From positions 144,282 to 208,281 of the forward strand of contig JAQBQE010000033.1 in assembly GCA_028287135.1 (NCBI GenBank): a stretch of 64,000 nucleotides of DNA, written 5' to 3'. Each line of letters begins with the position of its first letter. The first letter of the stretch is position 1. Below, piece after piece: positions 54,050 through 60,708 of the stretch. The translations under genes were made by a program, and so were the position numbers. The notes below the pieces were generated by a model. It saw nothing but the letters and a program-made list of their open reading frames with translations. It made no database searches and was not told where the DNA came from. The DNA is from Myxococcales bacterium. Its GTDB lineage: Bacteria; Myxococcota_A; Polyangia; Haliangiales; Haliangiaceae.

Positions 54050-54225
54050 ACAGCAGCTCTCGCCTCGACCATCACGTGCGCCCGCCTTTCAGTATGCCCG
54101 AGTCCTCGTAGCGTCGCGACGGATCGAGCGGTCCGAACATGCTCGCGGCGAGGAGAACGATCCTTTCTGTGCGTCGAGGGACCTCGACCTGGATACCCGG
54201 AGGCGCGTAACGTAGGCGATCAGTG

Positions 54226-55038
54226 ATGAACAGAGGCACGTGGGCGCTCGGACTGTCCGGAGTCGTCGTCACCCTGCACCTCGCCGCGTGCGGAACCGCG
54301 GGCAGCGCCGAGGTCGATGCGGCGGCCCCCGACACGCCGCGGATCTACGACGGCGGTGTCGAATGCGGCGATGACGTGTGCAACGGCGGCGAGGATCACG
54401 CGAGCTGCGCGGCTGACTGCCCGCTCCCAGGCTCGATCTGTGGCGACGGCATCTGCAACAACGGCGAGACGCTGGAGAGCTGCGCGGTCGATTGCCCCGC
54501 GGGTGGCACGTTCTGCGGCGACGGCGTGTGCAATGGCAGCGAATCCACCAGCACGTGTGCCGCGGATTGCCAGACCACGACCTGCAGCACGTCGCCCGAC
54601 AACTGCACGGGTGAGAACATCTGCATCTCGGGGACCTGCGTCTCGGCGTTCGGGCGCGTCTATCACATCGTGATCTTCGACGGCACGCTGTCCGCGACCG
54701 ACAAGAACGGATCTGCGTGGGACGCGTTCGGCGGACTTCCCGATCCGATGGTTCGTCTGACGCTCAATGGAACGAGCCTGGGGATGACGTCGGCCAAGGC
54801 GAACACGACCACACCCGTGTGGAACGAGTACCTGACCGCGGTGATCCCGGCGGGTAGCACGTTCGTGATCGACGTCCTCGACGAGGACGTCTCGATCAAC
54901 GACACGATGTTCACCTGCCAGAGCAATCCGCTGACCGCGAACCTGTTGCGGGTGGGCGGCGCGCCGTACTACGCCAGCTGCTCTGGTACCGGTGCGCTGT
55001 CGGAGTCGAAGGTCCGGCTGTACTTCGATCCGCAGTAG
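54226..55038 (+). CDS. Cys-rich C2-like domain lipoprotein
   Basis: This 270-residue exported protein has a lipobox (LSGVVVTLHLAAC). Three CGDGxCNxGE...CxxDCP modules span about residues 47-125, each with six Cys, plus another Cys-rich segment (CSTSPDNCTGENICISGTC). The C-terminal 125 residues (VYHIVIFDGTLSATDKNG, DPMVRLTLNG, TTPVWNEYL, FVIDVLDEDVS) look like a C2 domain, including the NPxWNE-type turn. The ATG at 54226 follows an in-frame GTG by one codon. It ends 27 bases before the UGA-containing gene and probably shares its transcript. Its disulphide-rich build fits a redox partner role. Confidence 0.8.
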   Translation: MNRGTWALGLSGVVVTLHLAACGTAGSAEVDAAAPDTPRIYDGGVECGDDVCNGGEDHASCAADCPLPGSICGDGICNNGETLESCAVDCPAGGTFCGDGVCNGSESTSTCAADCQTTTCSTSPDNCTGENICISGTCVSAFGRVYHIVIFDGTLSATDKNGSAWDAFGGLPDPMVRLTLNGTSLGMTSAKANTTTPVWNEYLTAVIPAGSTFVIDVLDEDVSINDTMFTCQSNPLTANLLRVGGAPYYASCSGTGALSESKVRLYFDPQ

Positions 55039-55065: not shown

Positions 55066-56400
55066 ATGAGTACAGCTCCACGGGCCTCTGTCCGGATCGC
55101 GATGTCGGTGTTCGCGGTGGTCGCCGTGCTCGGCGTGCAAGCTCGGCCCGCCCGGGCCCAGTGCACGACCTGAGTGAACCCAGCGCTCCCGGGTGGAGCG
55201 ACAGCAGCCGAGACGCAGGTCGACGAGGACGCATGGTCCGCGGGCGGCCGCGTGGGCTACACGTTCGTGCCCTACGGACGCTTGCAGCAGGGGACCACGG
55301 AGGCGGCGAATCCCGGCGGGCTCGGGATCGATGTCCACCTCGGCACCGCCCAGCTCCAGCTCTCGGCCCCGACCGCGACCACGCTCGACGTCCAGCTGCC
55401 GTTCGGCTCGTTGTTCACCCGGTCGATCGCGGAGCGCCGCACCGATAACGGCATCGGCGACCTCGAGCTCCGGGTCCGCCAGAGCCTGGGCCGTCTGTTC
55501 CGTGGCCCCCTGACCAGCGTGTCAGGCGGCCTCGTCGTCCCCACCGGCGGGTACGTCCCGCGCAGTGGTGCGGCCAACCTCGCGCCCGAGGCGAGCTACC
55601 TGACGCTCGGGCGCGGCGTGGCGTGGTGGATCGCGGAGGCCGACACCCGGATCTCGCTCGGCCGACGGCCGTCGGTGTTCGTCCAGCTCAGTGGTCGTGG
55701 ACCGCTGTCACGGACCGACGATGGCTTTGCGTGGGGCACGGAGCTGCGCGCGACCGCCGGCGTCCAGGTCTCGTCGATCACGTCGTGGCTCTCGGTGGTC
55801 GTGTCGTCGGACGTCCAGTGGCGTGACGGCGCGAGCGAGCCCGATCCGTTCTCGATGGCTCGGCTCACCAGCGCGAATGCCGGCGGCACCCAGTGGACCG
55901 CGTCGCCTGCCGCAGTGTTCGCGTTGCCCAACGATCTGTCCCTGGTCGCGGGCCTCCGGATCCCGCTCGTCAGCGACGTCACCGGCAACCAGCTGGTGCC
56001 GCAGACCGGCGGGTTCGTGGCCATGTCGTATTCGCGGCGGATCTCACCGCGTCCCGCGCTCGCCCCCGTGAGCACCGTCGAACGAACTCCGCCTCCCACC
56101 GGCCAGATTACCGTCGTAGACTACTGGGCAACCTGGTGCGCCCCGTGTCACGAGATCTCCCGGTCCCTCGAAGCGGCAGCCTCGCGCTGGCCCGACGTCC
56201 GGATCGTCAAGGTCGACGCGACGGAGTGGCCGAACGAGGGGGCACCTGCACTCCCGGCGGGCGCGACGGGGCTCCCGGTGATCGAGATCTTCGATCCGCA
56301 GGGCGTCCGGATCGCGCTGCTGATCGGCGCGGATGCGCTGCGCGTGGTCGAGACCGTCGACCGGCTGCGTGCGGAAACCACGACGGCGCCTCCGCCGTGA
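55066..56400 (+). CDS. Candidate selenoprotein: beta-barrel-thioredoxin fusion with CxxU
   Basis: Reading from the ATG gives a signal peptide (MSTAPRASVRIAMSVFAVVA, ending ARPARA|QCTT), then an in-frame TGA at 55171-55173 as codon 36. The frame then stays open to 56400, and GTG right after the TGA is the only other start. A signal peptide split from its own mature protein by one codon argues for readthrough. The motif becomes CTTU (CxxU). The mature part is beta-barrel-like (about 45-330), then a thioredoxin domain with WCAPC (Cys358, Cys361) and the cis-Pro loop TGLPVIEIF. A 6-bp hairpin with loop CGGGT starts 10 bases after the TGA. A nonsense mutation or sequencing error (TGG, TGC) remains possible. 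Confidence 0.7.
55171..55200 (+). promoter_or_regulatory. UGA codon with candidate bacterial SECIS hairpin
   Basis: After the TGA, CGCTCC (55184-55189) pairs with GGAGCG (55195-55200) around loop CGGGT. The loop opens 16 bases from the UGA with G as its second base, which fits the known bacterial SECIS geometry. Confidence 0.65.
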
Positions 56401-56419: not shown

Positions 56420-57007
56420 ATGAAGCCATCCCGCGTGATGATGTTCGCCCTCGCGTCGGCCCTGCTCGTCGGGTGTGGTGACGCCACGAAGACGACGACC
56501 CCGCCGGATTCTCTCGTCGGCGGGACCGCCGATGCGCCGATCCGGATGATCGATGCCCCGGGCAGCGTGCCGATGTTGCCGCTGTGGATGCTCGAGGATA
56601 TCCAGCCCGCCAGTCCCCGCGTCGGCCAGACCTACGGCCTCGATGCGTTCACTGGAAAGATTATCGTCGTCTCGTTACTGGAAGGTTTTTGAACGGCCTG
56701 CCGATCCCAGTCTGGGATCCTCGAAGACCTCTCGACCGCCCTGCTCGCCGACGGCTATCCGGTGCAGTTCGTCGTGCTGTCCGATCAGAACGCGACCGAC
56801 TTCTCGTCCCTGGTCACGATGCCGATCTTTCGCGACCCGAGCCCGGGCCGCGCCGCCTGGGAGGAGATGCAGCCCGGGGCGGTCAAGCACGACACCTTCG
56901 TGTTCGACAAGTCGGGCGTGAGGACGCTGTTCTGGGACGCCAGCTCGGAGAGCTTCAACCAGCTCGAGCCCGACATCCGCGCCGCGGTCGAGGCGATCGG
57001 CAGGTAG
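56420..57007 (+). CDS. Candidate selenoprotein: lipoprotein redoxin with UxxC
   Basis: The gene starts with a signal peptide and lipobox (MMFALASALLVGC). It reads through a redoxin beta strand (GKIIVVSLLEGF) to an in-frame TGA at 56690-56692, codon 91. The same frame continues TACRSQSGILEDLSTALLAD and then GYPVQFVVLSDQN to a stop at 57005-57007, total 195 codons with Sec. The TGA falls exactly where thioredoxin-fold proteins have the first active-site Cys, giving UTAC (UxxC). The surrounding VVSLLEGFU..C..Q..LEDL recalls selenoprotein P-like redoxins. A 7-bp hairpin follows at the right distance. It lies 19 bases after the barrel-thioredoxin gene. Confidence 0.8.
56690..56719 (+). promoter_or_regulatory. 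UGA codon with candidate bacterial SECIS hairpin
   Basis: GATCCCA (56703-56709) pairs perfectly with TGGGATC (56713-56719) around GTC. The apical region AGTCT closely resembles the GGTCT of E. coli fdhF. The key G is the 18th base after the UGA, the same as in the upstream gene. Confidence 0.75.
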
Positions 57008-57056: not shown

Positions 57057-58265
57057 ATGCGCGTGCTGTTTCTCTCGCCGCGGTACCCACCCGAGATGCG
57101 GCAGTTCACGCGCGGCCTCGCGGAGGTCGGCGTGGAGGTCCTCGGCGTCGGCGATGGCAGCCCCGATCCGGAGCTCCGGCGCTATCTCTCGGCGTACCTC
57201 GAAGTCCCGTCGCTGTTCGACGAGGACGACCTGATCGCGCGGGTTCACGCGTGGCTGCGTGGCCATTCGGTCGATCGCATCCTCGCGAACTGGGAACCGC
57301 TGGTGATGGTCGCCGCACGGATGCGGGAGAAGTTCGGCTTGCCCGGCATGTCGGTCGACACCGTCCGCGGGTTCCGCGACAAGCAGCTGATGAAGGATCG
57401 GGTCGCCGCCGCCGGCCTGCGCGTCCCGCGTGCCCATCGCGTCCGCTCGATCAAGGACGTGGCGAGCGCGATCGAACAGATCGGCTATCCGGCGATCATC
57501 AAGCCGATCAGCGGGGCCGGCAGCGCCGATACGTACAAGCTGGAGTCGGCCAAGGACCTCGAGCGCGTGCTGCCGCAGATGCACCACGTCGAGGAGGCGA
57601 TCTGCGAGGAGTTCATCTCCGGCGAGGAATACACCTACGACACCGTCGCGATCGACGGCGTCCCGGTGCTCGAGAACGTCACGCAGTACCTGCCGAACGC
57701 GCTCGAGATGCGATCGAACGAGTGGATCTCGCCGATCATGCTGTCGGTGCGTGACCTCGAGCAGCCGCACATCCGCCCCGGCCTCGAGCTCGGGCGTCAG
57801 GTGCTGACCGCGCTCGGCATGGGCGACGGCATGACCCACATGGAGTGGTTCCGGACCCCGGCGGGCGAGATCGTGTTCGGCGAGATCGCGTGTCGACCCG
57901 GCGGGGCGTGCGTCGTCGACATGATGAACTACACGAACGACATCGATCTGTTCCGGGAGTGGGCGCGCGTCGTCACCCATCGCCGGTTCGATGCGCCGAC
58001 CGAGCGCAAGTACAACGTCGGGATCGTGTTCAAGCGCGCACAGGGCCACGGCCGGATCCGCCGGATCGCAGGTCTCACCGAGTTCTACGACCGGTACCGG
58101 GAGCACATCGTCGAGGACACCCTGCTACGCCCGGGCTCCCCGCGACGGGACTGGAAGGCCACGCTGCTGTCCGACGGCTACCTCGTGATCCGCCATCCGA
58201 GCTGGGATGCGGCATGCGCGATGGCATCGGAGGCCGCGACCAGCGTGCATCTGTACGCGTCCTAG
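57057..58265 (+). CDS. ATP-grasp ligase (first of tandem pair)
   Basis: This 402-residue enzyme has the ATP-grasp layout. The N-terminal domain (MRVLFLSPRYPPEMRQF) is pre-ATP-grasp-like. DKQLMKDRVAAAGLRVPRAH and GYPAIIKPISGAGSADTY follow, with the ATP-binding Lys. EEFISGEEYTYDT and the metal-binding MEWFRTPAGEIVFGEIACRP come last. It would join a carboxylate to an amine or other nucleophile via acyl phosphate. It begins 49 bases after the redoxin gene. The substrate is unknown; relatives act in peptide and amino-acid-derived metabolite synthesis. Confidence 0.88.
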   Translation: MRVLFLSPRYPPEMRQFTRGLAEVGVEVLGVGDGSPDPELRRYLSAYLEVPSLFDEDDLIARVHAWLRGHSVDRILANWEPLVMVAARMREKFGLPGMSVDTVRGFRDKQLMKDRVAAAGLRVPRAHRVRSIKDVASAIEQIGYPAIIKPISGAGSADTYKLESAKDLERVLPQMHHVEEAICEEFISGEEYTYDTVAIDGVPVLENVTQYLPNALEMRSNEWISPIMLSVRDLEQPHIRPGLELGRQVLTALGMGDGMTHMEWFRTPAGEIVFGEIACRPGGACVVDMMNYTNDIDLFREWARVVTHRRFDAPTERKYNVGIVFKRAQGHGRIRRIAGLTEFYDRYREHIVEDTLLRPGSPRRDWKATLLSDGYLVIRHPSWDAACAMASEAATSVHLYAS

Positions 58266-58279
58266 CGATATCGTGACGC

Positions 58280-59515
58280 GTGCCGCACGTCGTCTTCATC
58301 GCTCCGCGCTTTCTCGAGAACACCAATCGCTACGTCCGCGCGTTCGCCGCGCTCGACGGCGTCACGCTGAGCGTCGTCAGCGCTGATCCGGCGGAGGCGA
58401 TCCCCGCGGCGATCCGCCCCTACATCGGGGGCCACTTCGGCGTCGCCAACTGCCTCGACGGCACCCAGCTCACCCGCGCGGTGCGAGCGATTGCCAGCTC
58501 GGTCGGCCGCGTCGATCGGCTCGCCGGTGCGCTCGAGCAGCTGCAGATGCCGATGGCAGAGGTCCGCGATGCGCTGGAGATCGAGGGACTGAGCACCGCG
58601 ATCGCGCGCAACTTCCGCGACAAGGACCGGATGAAGGAGGTCCTGCGCGCACGCGGCGTCCCGGTCGCCCGCAGCACGCTCGCGCGCTCGCGCGACGAGA
58701 TCGTGGCGTTCATCGAGCAGGTCGGGTTCCCGGTGATCGTCAAGCCGCAGGCCGGCCTCGGCTCGCGCGCCACGTTCCGGGTCGAGACCCCCGATGACCT
58801 CGCGGCGATCGCATCGCCCACCAAGACCAGCCCGATCCAGGTCGAGGAGTTCGTGCGCGCTCGCGAGCACACATGCGAGACGGTGACGATCCGGGGCACG
58901 CCGGTGTGGCGGTCGGGGACGCGCTACTTCCCGTCGCCGCTCGAAGTGCTCGAGGCGCCGTGGATCCAGTACTGCGTGCTGCTGCCCCGCGAGGCCGACG
59001 ACGCGACGTGGACCAGGTTCCATCCGACCAACGGTGACGCGCTGTCGGCGCTGTTCGGCGATCAGGCAAGGACCGCCGCGGGCACCGCGCTGACCCACAT
59101 GGAGTGGTTTCTCCGCGAGGACGGTACCGCCCTCGTCAACGAGGTCGGCGTGCGGCCACCGGGCGTTCAGATCATGCCGCTGATGAGCATCGGGCACGGC
59201 ACCGACATGATCGCGGACTGGTGTCGGCTGATCGCGCTTGACCAGTTCACGCCCAAGCCGCGGACGATGGCCGCCGGCTCCGCGTTCTTCCGCGGCCAGG
59301 GCGCGGGCTCACGGATCGCGTCGGTCACCGGCATCGAGCGCGCGATCGAGCAAGCCGGGGACTCGCTCGTCGAGATGCGCACGCCCAAGGTCGGCCAGCC
59401 CCGCGCCGAAGGCTACGAGGGTGAGGGCTTCGCGATCATCAAGCACGCGACCACCGAGGGCGCGAAGCTCGCGCTCCGCGCACTGATCGAGAACATCCAG
59501 ATCCGCTACCACTGA
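58280..59515 (+). CDS. ATP-grasp ligase (second of tandem pair)
   Basis: This 411-residue ATP-grasp protein begins at a GTG 14 bases after the first. It keeps the same plan: FRDKDRMKEVLRARGVPVAR, GFPVIVKPQAGLGSRATF, VEEFVRAREHTCETV and MEWFLREDGTALVNEVGVRP. The similarity suggests an old duplication with different acceptor or donor preference. Two consecutive ligases could build a dipeptide-like product or modify one substrate twice. A hairpin terminator follows. Confidence 0.88.
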   Translation: MPHVVFIAPRFLENTNRYVRAFAALDGVTLSVVSADPAEAIPAAIRPYIGGHFGVANCLDGTQLTRAVRAIASSVGRVDRLAGALEQLQMPMAEVRDALEIEGLSTAIARNFRDKDRMKEVLRARGVPVARSTLARSRDEIVAFIEQVGFPVIVKPQAGLGSRATFRVETPDDLAAIASPTKTSPIQVEEFVRAREHTCETVTIRGTPVWRSGTRYFPSPLEVLEAPWIQYCVLLPREADDATWTRFHPTNGDALSALFGDQARTAAGTALTHMEWFLREDGTALVNEVGVRPPGVQIMPLMSIGHGTDMIADWCRLIALDQFTPKPRTMAAGSAFFRGQGAGSRIASVTGIERAIEQAGDSLVEMRTPKVGQPRAEGYEGEGFAIIKHATTEGAKLALRALIENIQIRYH

Positions 59516-59541: not shown

Positions 59542-60708
59542 TCAGTGCGCGTGGCCGCTGTGATCGTCGTGCGCGCCAGCAGCGCCGGGCGCCGGCATCG
59601 CCGGAGCGGTGACGCCTTCGGCCGCGACCATCGGATAGCCGCGCGTGTGCCAGACATTGACGCCCTCGTCGAGGACGACCGCCTTCTTGTGGCCGCGCTT
59701 GACGAGCTCGTCGACGACGATGCCCGACAGGTGATGCGGACACGCGCAGTACGCGACGACCCAGGTGTCGAGCGGGAGGTCGTTGAGGCGCGCGACGTCG
59801 TGATACGGGATCGAGACCGCGCCCTTGATGTGTGCACGCATCCAGTCCGACGGTGGACGCGCATCGACGATGATCATCTTGGCCCCCGCCTTGTAGGCCT
59901 TGGCCACGTCATCGACGGACACGAACCGACCGTCGCGTGGCTTCCACGCCGGGTCCTTGCCCTTGGGGTTGATGACGAGCGGCTCCTTGCCGGTCGGGGC
60001 CGGCAGCATGCCCGCGAACTTCGCGCCGGAGCCGAGCGTGCGGACGTAGGCGACGACATCGTTGATCTGCCCGTCGGTGAGCTGACCGGCGAACGGCAGC
60101 ATCTTGGTGCCCGGGCGACCGTGGACGATCGCGTGCTTGATGAACGGATCGCTCGCCTGGGCCTGGAACATCACGTTCGCGAGGTGAGGCGCATCGCCGC
60201 GCGTGGCCTTGTCGCCGTGGCAGGTCTTGCAGCTCTTGAGATAGAGCGCCTCGCCCTTTGCCGGGTCGCCCGGCTTCGTGATCGGCGCGAGCTCCTTCAC
60301 CTTGGGGCCCTGCTCGCGGAGGTACGCGACGAGGCGCGTGATCGCGGCGTCGTCGAGCGGACCGCCGAGCTTGTCGCTGTACCCGGCCATCGCCGTGCCG
60401 GGACGCCCCGTCACGATCGACGCCTTGAGAAAGTCGTCGGTCGCGCTCTCGAGGAACGTCGGATTGTTGAGCGCGGGCGCGTTGTCCGCGATGTAGCCCT
60501 CGAGCTTCGCGCCGTGACACTGCGCGCACAACGCGACGTAGATCTGCGAGCCCGGCAACGTTGCCGGGTGCGCATCCGCCACCGGCGCATCCTTGACGAT
60601 GGCCGGCGGCGCGGGTGGTGGTCGGTTCACGGGCGCCCCGGCGGGCGGCGCCGCGTTCGAGTCACAACCGCTGATAACTAGACACAGGAGAAGCCACGGA
60701 CGGATCAC
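59542..60708 (-). CDS. Di-cytochrome c and rhodanese lipoprotein
   Basis: This 388-residue exported protein has lipobox MIRPWLLLCLVISGC. Two mono-haem cytochrome c domains follow, with CAQCH (about residue 60) and CKTCH (about 160); distal Met candidates are MAGYS and MLPFAG. A rhodanese domain spans about 265-360 (IIVDARPPSDWMRAHIKGAV, active-site Cys in AYCACPHHLSG). The end is His-rich (HDDHSGHAH), a possible metal site. Haem c electron transfer fused to sulphur transfer suggests a periplasmic sulphur or thiol oxidation step. It converges with the ATP-grasp operon. Confidence 0.9.
   Translation of the reverse strand: MIRPWLLLCLVISGCDSNAAPPAGAPVNRPPPAPPAIVKDAPVADAHPATLPGSQIYVALCAQCHGAKLEGYIADNAPALNNPTFLESATDDFLKASIVTGRPGTAMAGYSDKLGGPLDDAAITRLVAYLREQGPKVKELAPITKPGDPAKGEALYLKSCKTCHGDKATRGDAPHLANVMFQAQASDPFIKHAIVHGRPGTKMLPFAGQLTDGQINDVVAYVRTLGSGAKFAGMLPAPTGKEPLVINPKGKDPAWKPRDGRFVSVDDVAKAYKAGAKMIIVDARPPSDWMRAHIKGAVSIPYHDVARLNDLPLDTWVVAYCACPHHLSGIVVDELVKRGHKKAVVLDEGVNVWHTRGYPMVAAEGVTAPAMPAPGAAGAHDDHSGHAH

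Follow-up and report, generated by a model that had tools for sequence, protein, structure and literature searches.

A predicted pair of selenoproteins, a barrel-thioredoxin protein and a SelP_N-like lipoprotein, in a Myxococcales bacterium

The N-terminal domain of selenoprotein P (SelP) has been placed near TlpA and ResA by Lobanov and colleagues (PMC2397514). The Global Ocean Sampling (GOS) survey of 2008 listed 99 selenoproteins, named 'Prx-like 2', with low similarity to pfam04592, and described them as being without a strong homologue in the prokaryotes sequenced at that time (PMC2398784). Table 1 of another compilation lists other barrel proteins containing selenocysteine (Sec) among its 119 families, namely of the MtrB/PioB type and a TonB receptor, and operons with several selenoproteins are reported there for other pathways (PMC13188914). 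The present analysis concerns a stretch of 64,000 nucleotides from a Myxococcales bacterium (contig JAQBQE010000033.1, positions 144,282 to 208,281; hereafter the window), in which a lipoprotein gene (56420–57007) and the gene immediately upstream (55066–56400) each contain an in-frame TGA. The initial annotation, made from the letters alone, had proposed the lipoprotein as a candidate selenoprotein redoxin and did not mention the second TGA, at 55171–55173. We consider it probable that the two genes form a two-selenoprotein operon acting at the outer membrane, in which a barrel-thioredoxin protein with a CxxU site (selenoprotein 1) and a SelP_N-like lipoprotein with a UxxC site (selenoprotein 2) would work as one redox pair.

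The gene of predicted selenoprotein 2 is located on the forward strand between the ATG at 56420 and the TAG at 57005–57007 and encodes 195 residues. A signal peptide with the lipobox LVGC (residues 16–19, with Cys 19) is encoded at 56420–56476. The gene contains a single in-frame TGA, codon 91 (56690–56692), which when read as Sec yields the motif EGFUTACRSQ, i.e., UxxC with Cys 94. Structure prediction of the protein showed a thioredoxin fold. The earlier description of an in-frame UGA replacing the first catalytic Cys of a thioredoxin-fold lipoprotein, with a frame open and protein-like on both sides, was thus borne out. A lipobox-like motif, searched with a loose pattern, was present in 14/14 Sec-type loci of clade A, the group that includes the window's own locus. 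Going by the signal peptide and lipobox, selenoprotein 2 is predicted to be a lipidated bacterial lipoprotein. Recoding of codon 91 as Sec is predicted with something close to certainty.

A search of 5.8 billion proteins retrieved six relatives of the lipoprotein, all of which carried Cys at codon 91; Sec forms are expected to be under-represented in protein collections, where they are probably cut at the TGA. One such Sec gene (L041/L069, G043:C207) is likely represented in public data by its two halves, deposited as 'hypothetical proteins' with lengths of 103 and 89 residues. Among 84,980 named genomes, 15 lipoprotein loci were identified, and the 14 spanning codon 91 had either TGA (11) or TGC (3), so the alignment of homologues that the initial annotation had suggested showed only Cys or TGA at this codon. 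In clade A, TGA was found in 13 loci besides the window's own and Cys in 3. Lipoprotein matches at an E value of 0.001 were present in 34 of the 192 related genomes. A phylum-wide sample of 377 genomes gave matches at 1e-15 in 49 genomes, with a TGA inside 48 of the 95 matches. Twenty of these 48 were fetched, being high scorers from outside the class of the window's genome, and in 20/20 the TGA was the U of UxxC (one, L114, repeats the earlier locus L023). A tree of 39 rows, with 9 of its 36 inner branches well supported, required at least five Sec/Cys changes; same-locus copies, L019, the truncated L021, the TlpA-like L048, L050 and L052, and L047 were left out of it. The JALOQF assembly (Myxococcaceae) was seen to hold both a Sec-type (L018) and a Cys-type (L024) copy of the two-gene module. 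Two genomes of family f33 (G265 and G305) had six matches each, some with and some without TGA, including frames of more than 700 residues, which indicates a family expansion with fusions. One scan of viral_contigs yielded no relative of the lipoprotein, and a viral origin accordingly finds no support there.

Codon 91 is followed by the hairpin GATCCCA-GTC-TGGGATC (56703–56719, forward strand), assigned as the Sec insertion sequence (SECIS) of selenoprotein 2. It has a 7-bp stem and the loop GTC, which lies 17 nt past the UGA, with a value of −8.7 kcal/mol, and it falls inside the limits for bacterial SECIS (bSECIS) elements as quoted in PMC13188914. The initial annotation had already pointed to this stem at SECIS distance; weak when taken alone, the hairpin gained its weight from covariation across genomes. 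The full 7-bp stem was found at that position in 14 of the 19 core loci, against 0.018 expected when synonymous codons were redrawn, and a stem of at least 6 bp in 16/19 (0.40 expected); the conservation across genomes far exceeds chance. Counted from the UGA, bases 14–20 pair with bases 24–30, enclosing a loop of three bases (GGC, GTC or GGT). Covariation was evaluated in 37 loci with 30 distinct sequences, leaving out L019 (identical in its letters to L018), same-locus copies, L114, the loci L039 and L116 with a moved hairpin, and the distant L047 and L053. Four inner pairs were invariant, and the three outer pairs each changed on both sides. Pairing cells amounted to 93.8% in the true register vs 27–57% in slid versions, and the covariation score was reached by 0/500 shuffles. 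None of the eight Cys-form homologues compared showed such a stem (L040 was left out of this comparison because the wrong CxxC had been picked in it). In L039 and L116, the hairpin was found 8 nt further downstream in another codon phase, with the QSQ residues kept, and it is therefore the RNA shape that is conserved, not just the peptide. A SECIS element has shifted naturally in these two loci.

The upstream gene (55066–56400, forward strand) is predicted to encode selenoprotein 1, a protein of 444 residues when the TGA at 55171–55173 is read through as Sec 36. The predicted protein consists of a signal peptide, an N-terminal CTTU (CxxU) site, an outer-membrane barrel and a C-terminal thioredoxin domain with the active site CAPC (56137–56148). 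The ATG at 55066 was chosen as the start, with an alternative ATG at 55102, while the program-made list of open reading frames begins this gene at 55174, directly after the TGA. In 14/14 Sec-type loci, the TGA stood immediately before VNP(A/S)LP and was preceded by an in-frame signal peptide ending in AQCTTU or GQCTTU. In 3/3 Cys-type loci (L020, L022 and L024, the last of which was left out of alignment A4), Cys occupied the position of this TGA, within CASC or CTTC. A candidate SECIS, CGCTCC-CGGGT-GGAGCG (55184–55200, forward strand), forms a 6-bp hairpin 16 nt past the UGA, with a G in its loop CGGGT and −10.0 kcal/mol. One group of loci kept it throughout (11/11), and the Myxococcaceae loci have it too (3/3), with the register shifted. 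Recoding of this UGA as Sec is predicted and appears very highly probable, marginally less so than that of codon 91. The structural model, with a mean predicted local distance difference test score (pLDDT) of 81, consists of a signal helix followed by a barrel with ∼12 strands and a thioredoxin domain, and the C-terminal thioredoxin domain was recognised by Pfam. The best Foldseek matches of the predicted barrel were the COG4313 channel and FapF, with TM-scores of 0.78 on 4rl8 and 0.69 on 5o67_B.

The assembly of the window's genome (4.84 Mb, 71 contigs, 59.5% complete) contains tRNA-Sec (73.6 bits), selA (525 bits) and selD (311 bits). The selD gene has an in-frame TGA of its own at GGGUAAK (G000:C66:77-922, L060); it is an independent UGA gene and likely encodes a selenoprotein itself. 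Among the 17 genomes that carry the Sec form, selB was found above cut-off in 15 (not in the window's genome, G000, or in G008) and tRNA-Sec in 16 (not in G002), and every one of the 17 has at least one of the two. Of the five genomes with the Cys form only, three have both selB and tRNA-Sec, and two (G078 and G160) have neither.

Several observations weigh against reading both TGA codons as Sec. No selB above cut-off was found in the 59.5%-complete assembly, where the best match reached 82 bits vs 242, the weak matches being taken as other GTPases; the search for Sec machinery that the initial annotation had called for was therefore only partly positive. Within the window, SECIS-like stems of at least 6 bp follow 228 of the 1341 TGA triplets on both strands, and stems of at least 7 bp follow 102 of them, which rules out a single hairpin as sole evidence. 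Two of the five covariation measures were less decisive, the changed-pair count being reached by 26/500 shuffles and the pair-type count by 13/500, and the outermost pair of the codon 91 hairpin was broken in 9 of the 30 distinct rows. The counts over related loci are not independent events because the loci share kinship, L018 and L019 being near copies there. With respect to selenoprotein 1, codon choice alone yields its hairpin in 0.41/11 loci, which leaves this hairpin less strongly supported, and few of its pairs vary, with little covariation. The N-terminal CTTU stretch had a pLDDT <50, so its placement is not given by the model, and residues 37–345, the barrel part, had no Pfam match. 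One alternative, that the TGA is a true stop, a sequencing error or a pseudogene mark, would fit the missing selB and the public deposition of the halves of one relative as separate hypothetical proteins. The identical TGA nevertheless recurs in independent assemblies, aligned to Cys, and the frame is intact on both sides of it, with a hairpin that covaries. The stop or pseudogene reading is ruled out by this conservation, and we assign it a negligible probability. A further alternative accepts the lipoprotein as the only selenoprotein and lets the upstream gene begin after its TGA, at GTG 55174. The open frame does begin there with GTG in most loci, and the hairpin evidence is weaker in this gene; yet the signal peptide and CTT are encoded before the TGA in 14/14 loci, and the Cys-type loci read straight through with CASC or CTTC, which makes such a start very improbable.

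Within clade A, the two genes were consistently found together. In all 16 other clade-A loci whose sequence extends upstream, the barrel-thioredoxin gene immediately precedes the lipoprotein gene. Full-length orthologues of the upstream gene were detected in 11 of the 192 genomes, the same 11 that harbor a clade-A lipoprotein, and each of them has the TGA. A distant relative of the barrel (56.7 bits, without TGA) was noted in G028. Both proteins may be selenoproteins without being partners, the lipoprotein working on its own as a disulfide reductase or peroxidase and the barrel protein being merely co-transcribed. Against this stands the occurrence of both genes together throughout clade A, in Sec and Cys forms alike, and we regard a lone lipoprotein as unlikely, while a partnership of the two proteins appears probable. 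In the redox pair that we favor, each UGA would be recoded by SelB and Sec-tRNA at the hairpin that follows it, and the barrel protein would be exported and then folded into the outer membrane, with the Cys-Sec pair near its mature N-terminus and the thioredoxin domain (CAPC) both facing the periplasm. The lipoprotein would be anchored beside it, and its selenol would act as reductant for a substrate arriving at or through the barrel, for which a disulfide or a hydroperoxide is the likeliest candidate. Attack by the selenol could lead to an Se-S bond with Cys 94, after which the barrel protein's thioredoxin domain would re-reduce the lipoprotein, the N-terminal Cys-Sec pair possibly serving as a second relay.

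The neighborhood of the pair was also analyzed. A protein with a C2 domain and repeated CGDG(V/I)CN motifs is encoded upstream (54223–55038), and two tandem ATP-grasp genes are located directly downstream on the same strand (57057–59515); in the relatives compared, these ATP-grasp genes were not seen to be conserved next to the pair. A diheme cytochrome c-rhodanese protein, whose homologues adjoin distant relatives of selenoprotein 2, is encoded at 59542–60708 on the reverse strand and is the sole cytochrome c-rhodanese match at 1e-20 in the window's genome. Its membership in the operon is doubtful because it lies on the opposite strand, 2.5 kb downstream of the pair. In clade B, which comprises distant members of the lipoprotein family, a diheme cytochrome c-rhodanese gene was present within the fetched stretch of 12/18 loci (domains checked in six); three of the six loci without it abut a contig end. 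For the remaining clade-A loci, no such gene lay within the stretch that was fetched. Across the family, an involvement in cytochrome and sulfur-transfer chemistry is plausible, given these two distributions; for the present operon the link is weak. Beside the SelP_N-like gene of G051, the cytochrome c-rhodanese gene is interrupted by a single in-frame stop codon, recorded as TAG, at L065:7301-7303. The porin ExtI of Geobacter is described with selenoprotein, cytochrome and rhodanese neighbors (PMC5877670). By analogy with the proposal made for ExtI, the pair might serve at the cell surface to acquire or process compounds of selenium or sulfur. The barrel, predicted to be of a small-molecule channel type, and the proximity of cytochrome c-rhodanese genes in clade B and, at 2.5 kb, in the window would suit such a role. 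The absence of that gene from the other clade-A stretches speaks against it, as does a resemblance to ExtI that is drawn by analogy, and this role is judged improbable, more so than a lipoprotein acting alone.

Neither a barrel-thioredoxin selenoprotein nor the two-gene pair was found in the literature search or in the available Table 1 of PMC13188914. No NCBIfam model covers the barrel region, and that table lists no such fusion, owing to which the barrel-thioredoxin protein with CxxU would represent a new selenoprotein family. Sec redoxins of the lipoprotein's kind are already known. The initial annotation had called a bacterial protein of this type unusual, which is partly right, as SelP_N-like bacterial selenoproteins had been listed from ocean reads (PMC2398784). 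SelP_N-like selenoproteins can now be placed in assembled genomes, with neighbors, a partner gene and Sec/Cys pairs, by which their function becomes testable. The covarying hairpin is also well suited for training methods of SECIS detection.

PF08534 was the commonest weak Pfam match across the lipoprotein family (64/69 members), and the 'Redoxin family protein' PF08534 in Table 1 of PMC13188914 shares UxxC with the lipoprotein, as far as its description there allows a comparison. NCBIfam NF053656, the redoxin_TUGYCR (seleno)protein, has a thioredoxin fold and a UxxCRSQ-type site, as in selenoprotein 2; with 197.9 bits, the relative L053 qualifies as a full member, and selenoprotein 2 itself, at 32.4 bits, is below the cut-off of 100 of this nearest curated seleno-family. 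By description, 'Prx-like 2' agrees with the lipoprotein family in being a UxxC redoxin, weakly SelP_N-like, with Sec and Cys forms; it was known from reads, and the lipoprotein form, barrel partner and operon are not described in the available part of that report (PMC2398784). On this descriptive comparison, clade B may be the genomic form of 'Prx-like 2'.

The resemblance to selenoprotein P proposed in the initial annotation proved real and indirect. Selenoprotein 2 itself scored 18.5 bits against Pfam SelP_N (PF04592), under the gathering cut-off of 23.2, and 13 of the 14 distant clade-B members scanned were above it (29.3–61.8 bits), with L044 missing it at 23.1. SelP_N was the best Pfam family for 11/14 clade-B members. 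Three matched fragments of TlpA-type proteins (56–120 residues), used as controls, had no SelP_N match. A profile search with clade B returned seven proteins, none named as animal; two PDB sequence searches returned no selenoprotein P; and it was not among the matches listed in the structure search, which is not evidence against a relation. Nearly all family members have Lys-x-Asp just before the strand at 159–162, where thioredoxins carry a cis-proline, and animal SelP carries a motif similar to Lys-x-Asp. The clade-B members above the SelP_N cut-off make it possible to ask directly, from bacterial sequences, how animal selenoprotein P originated. A selenium-based redox relay of the outer membrane, with its lipoprotein from the bacterial lineage ancestral to the animal SelP N-terminal domain, Sec position included, is a tentative possibility.

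Taken against the closest known systems, the predicted barrel of selenoprotein 1 appears by modeling to share its fold with the COG4313 channel and FapF at ∼15% identity, and it differs from them in the fused thioredoxin domain and the N-terminal CxxU. Selenoprotein 2 likewise appears from its model to share its fold with the thiol-disulfide reductases TlpA, ResA and DsbE, and is unlike them in containing Sec and in having no cis-proline at the usual position. Like the N-terminal domain of selenoprotein P, it has a UxxC motif, with its predicted Sec, in the active site of the thioredoxin fold, and it differs from that protein in having no Sec-rich tail and in carrying a bacterial SECIS inside its coding region.
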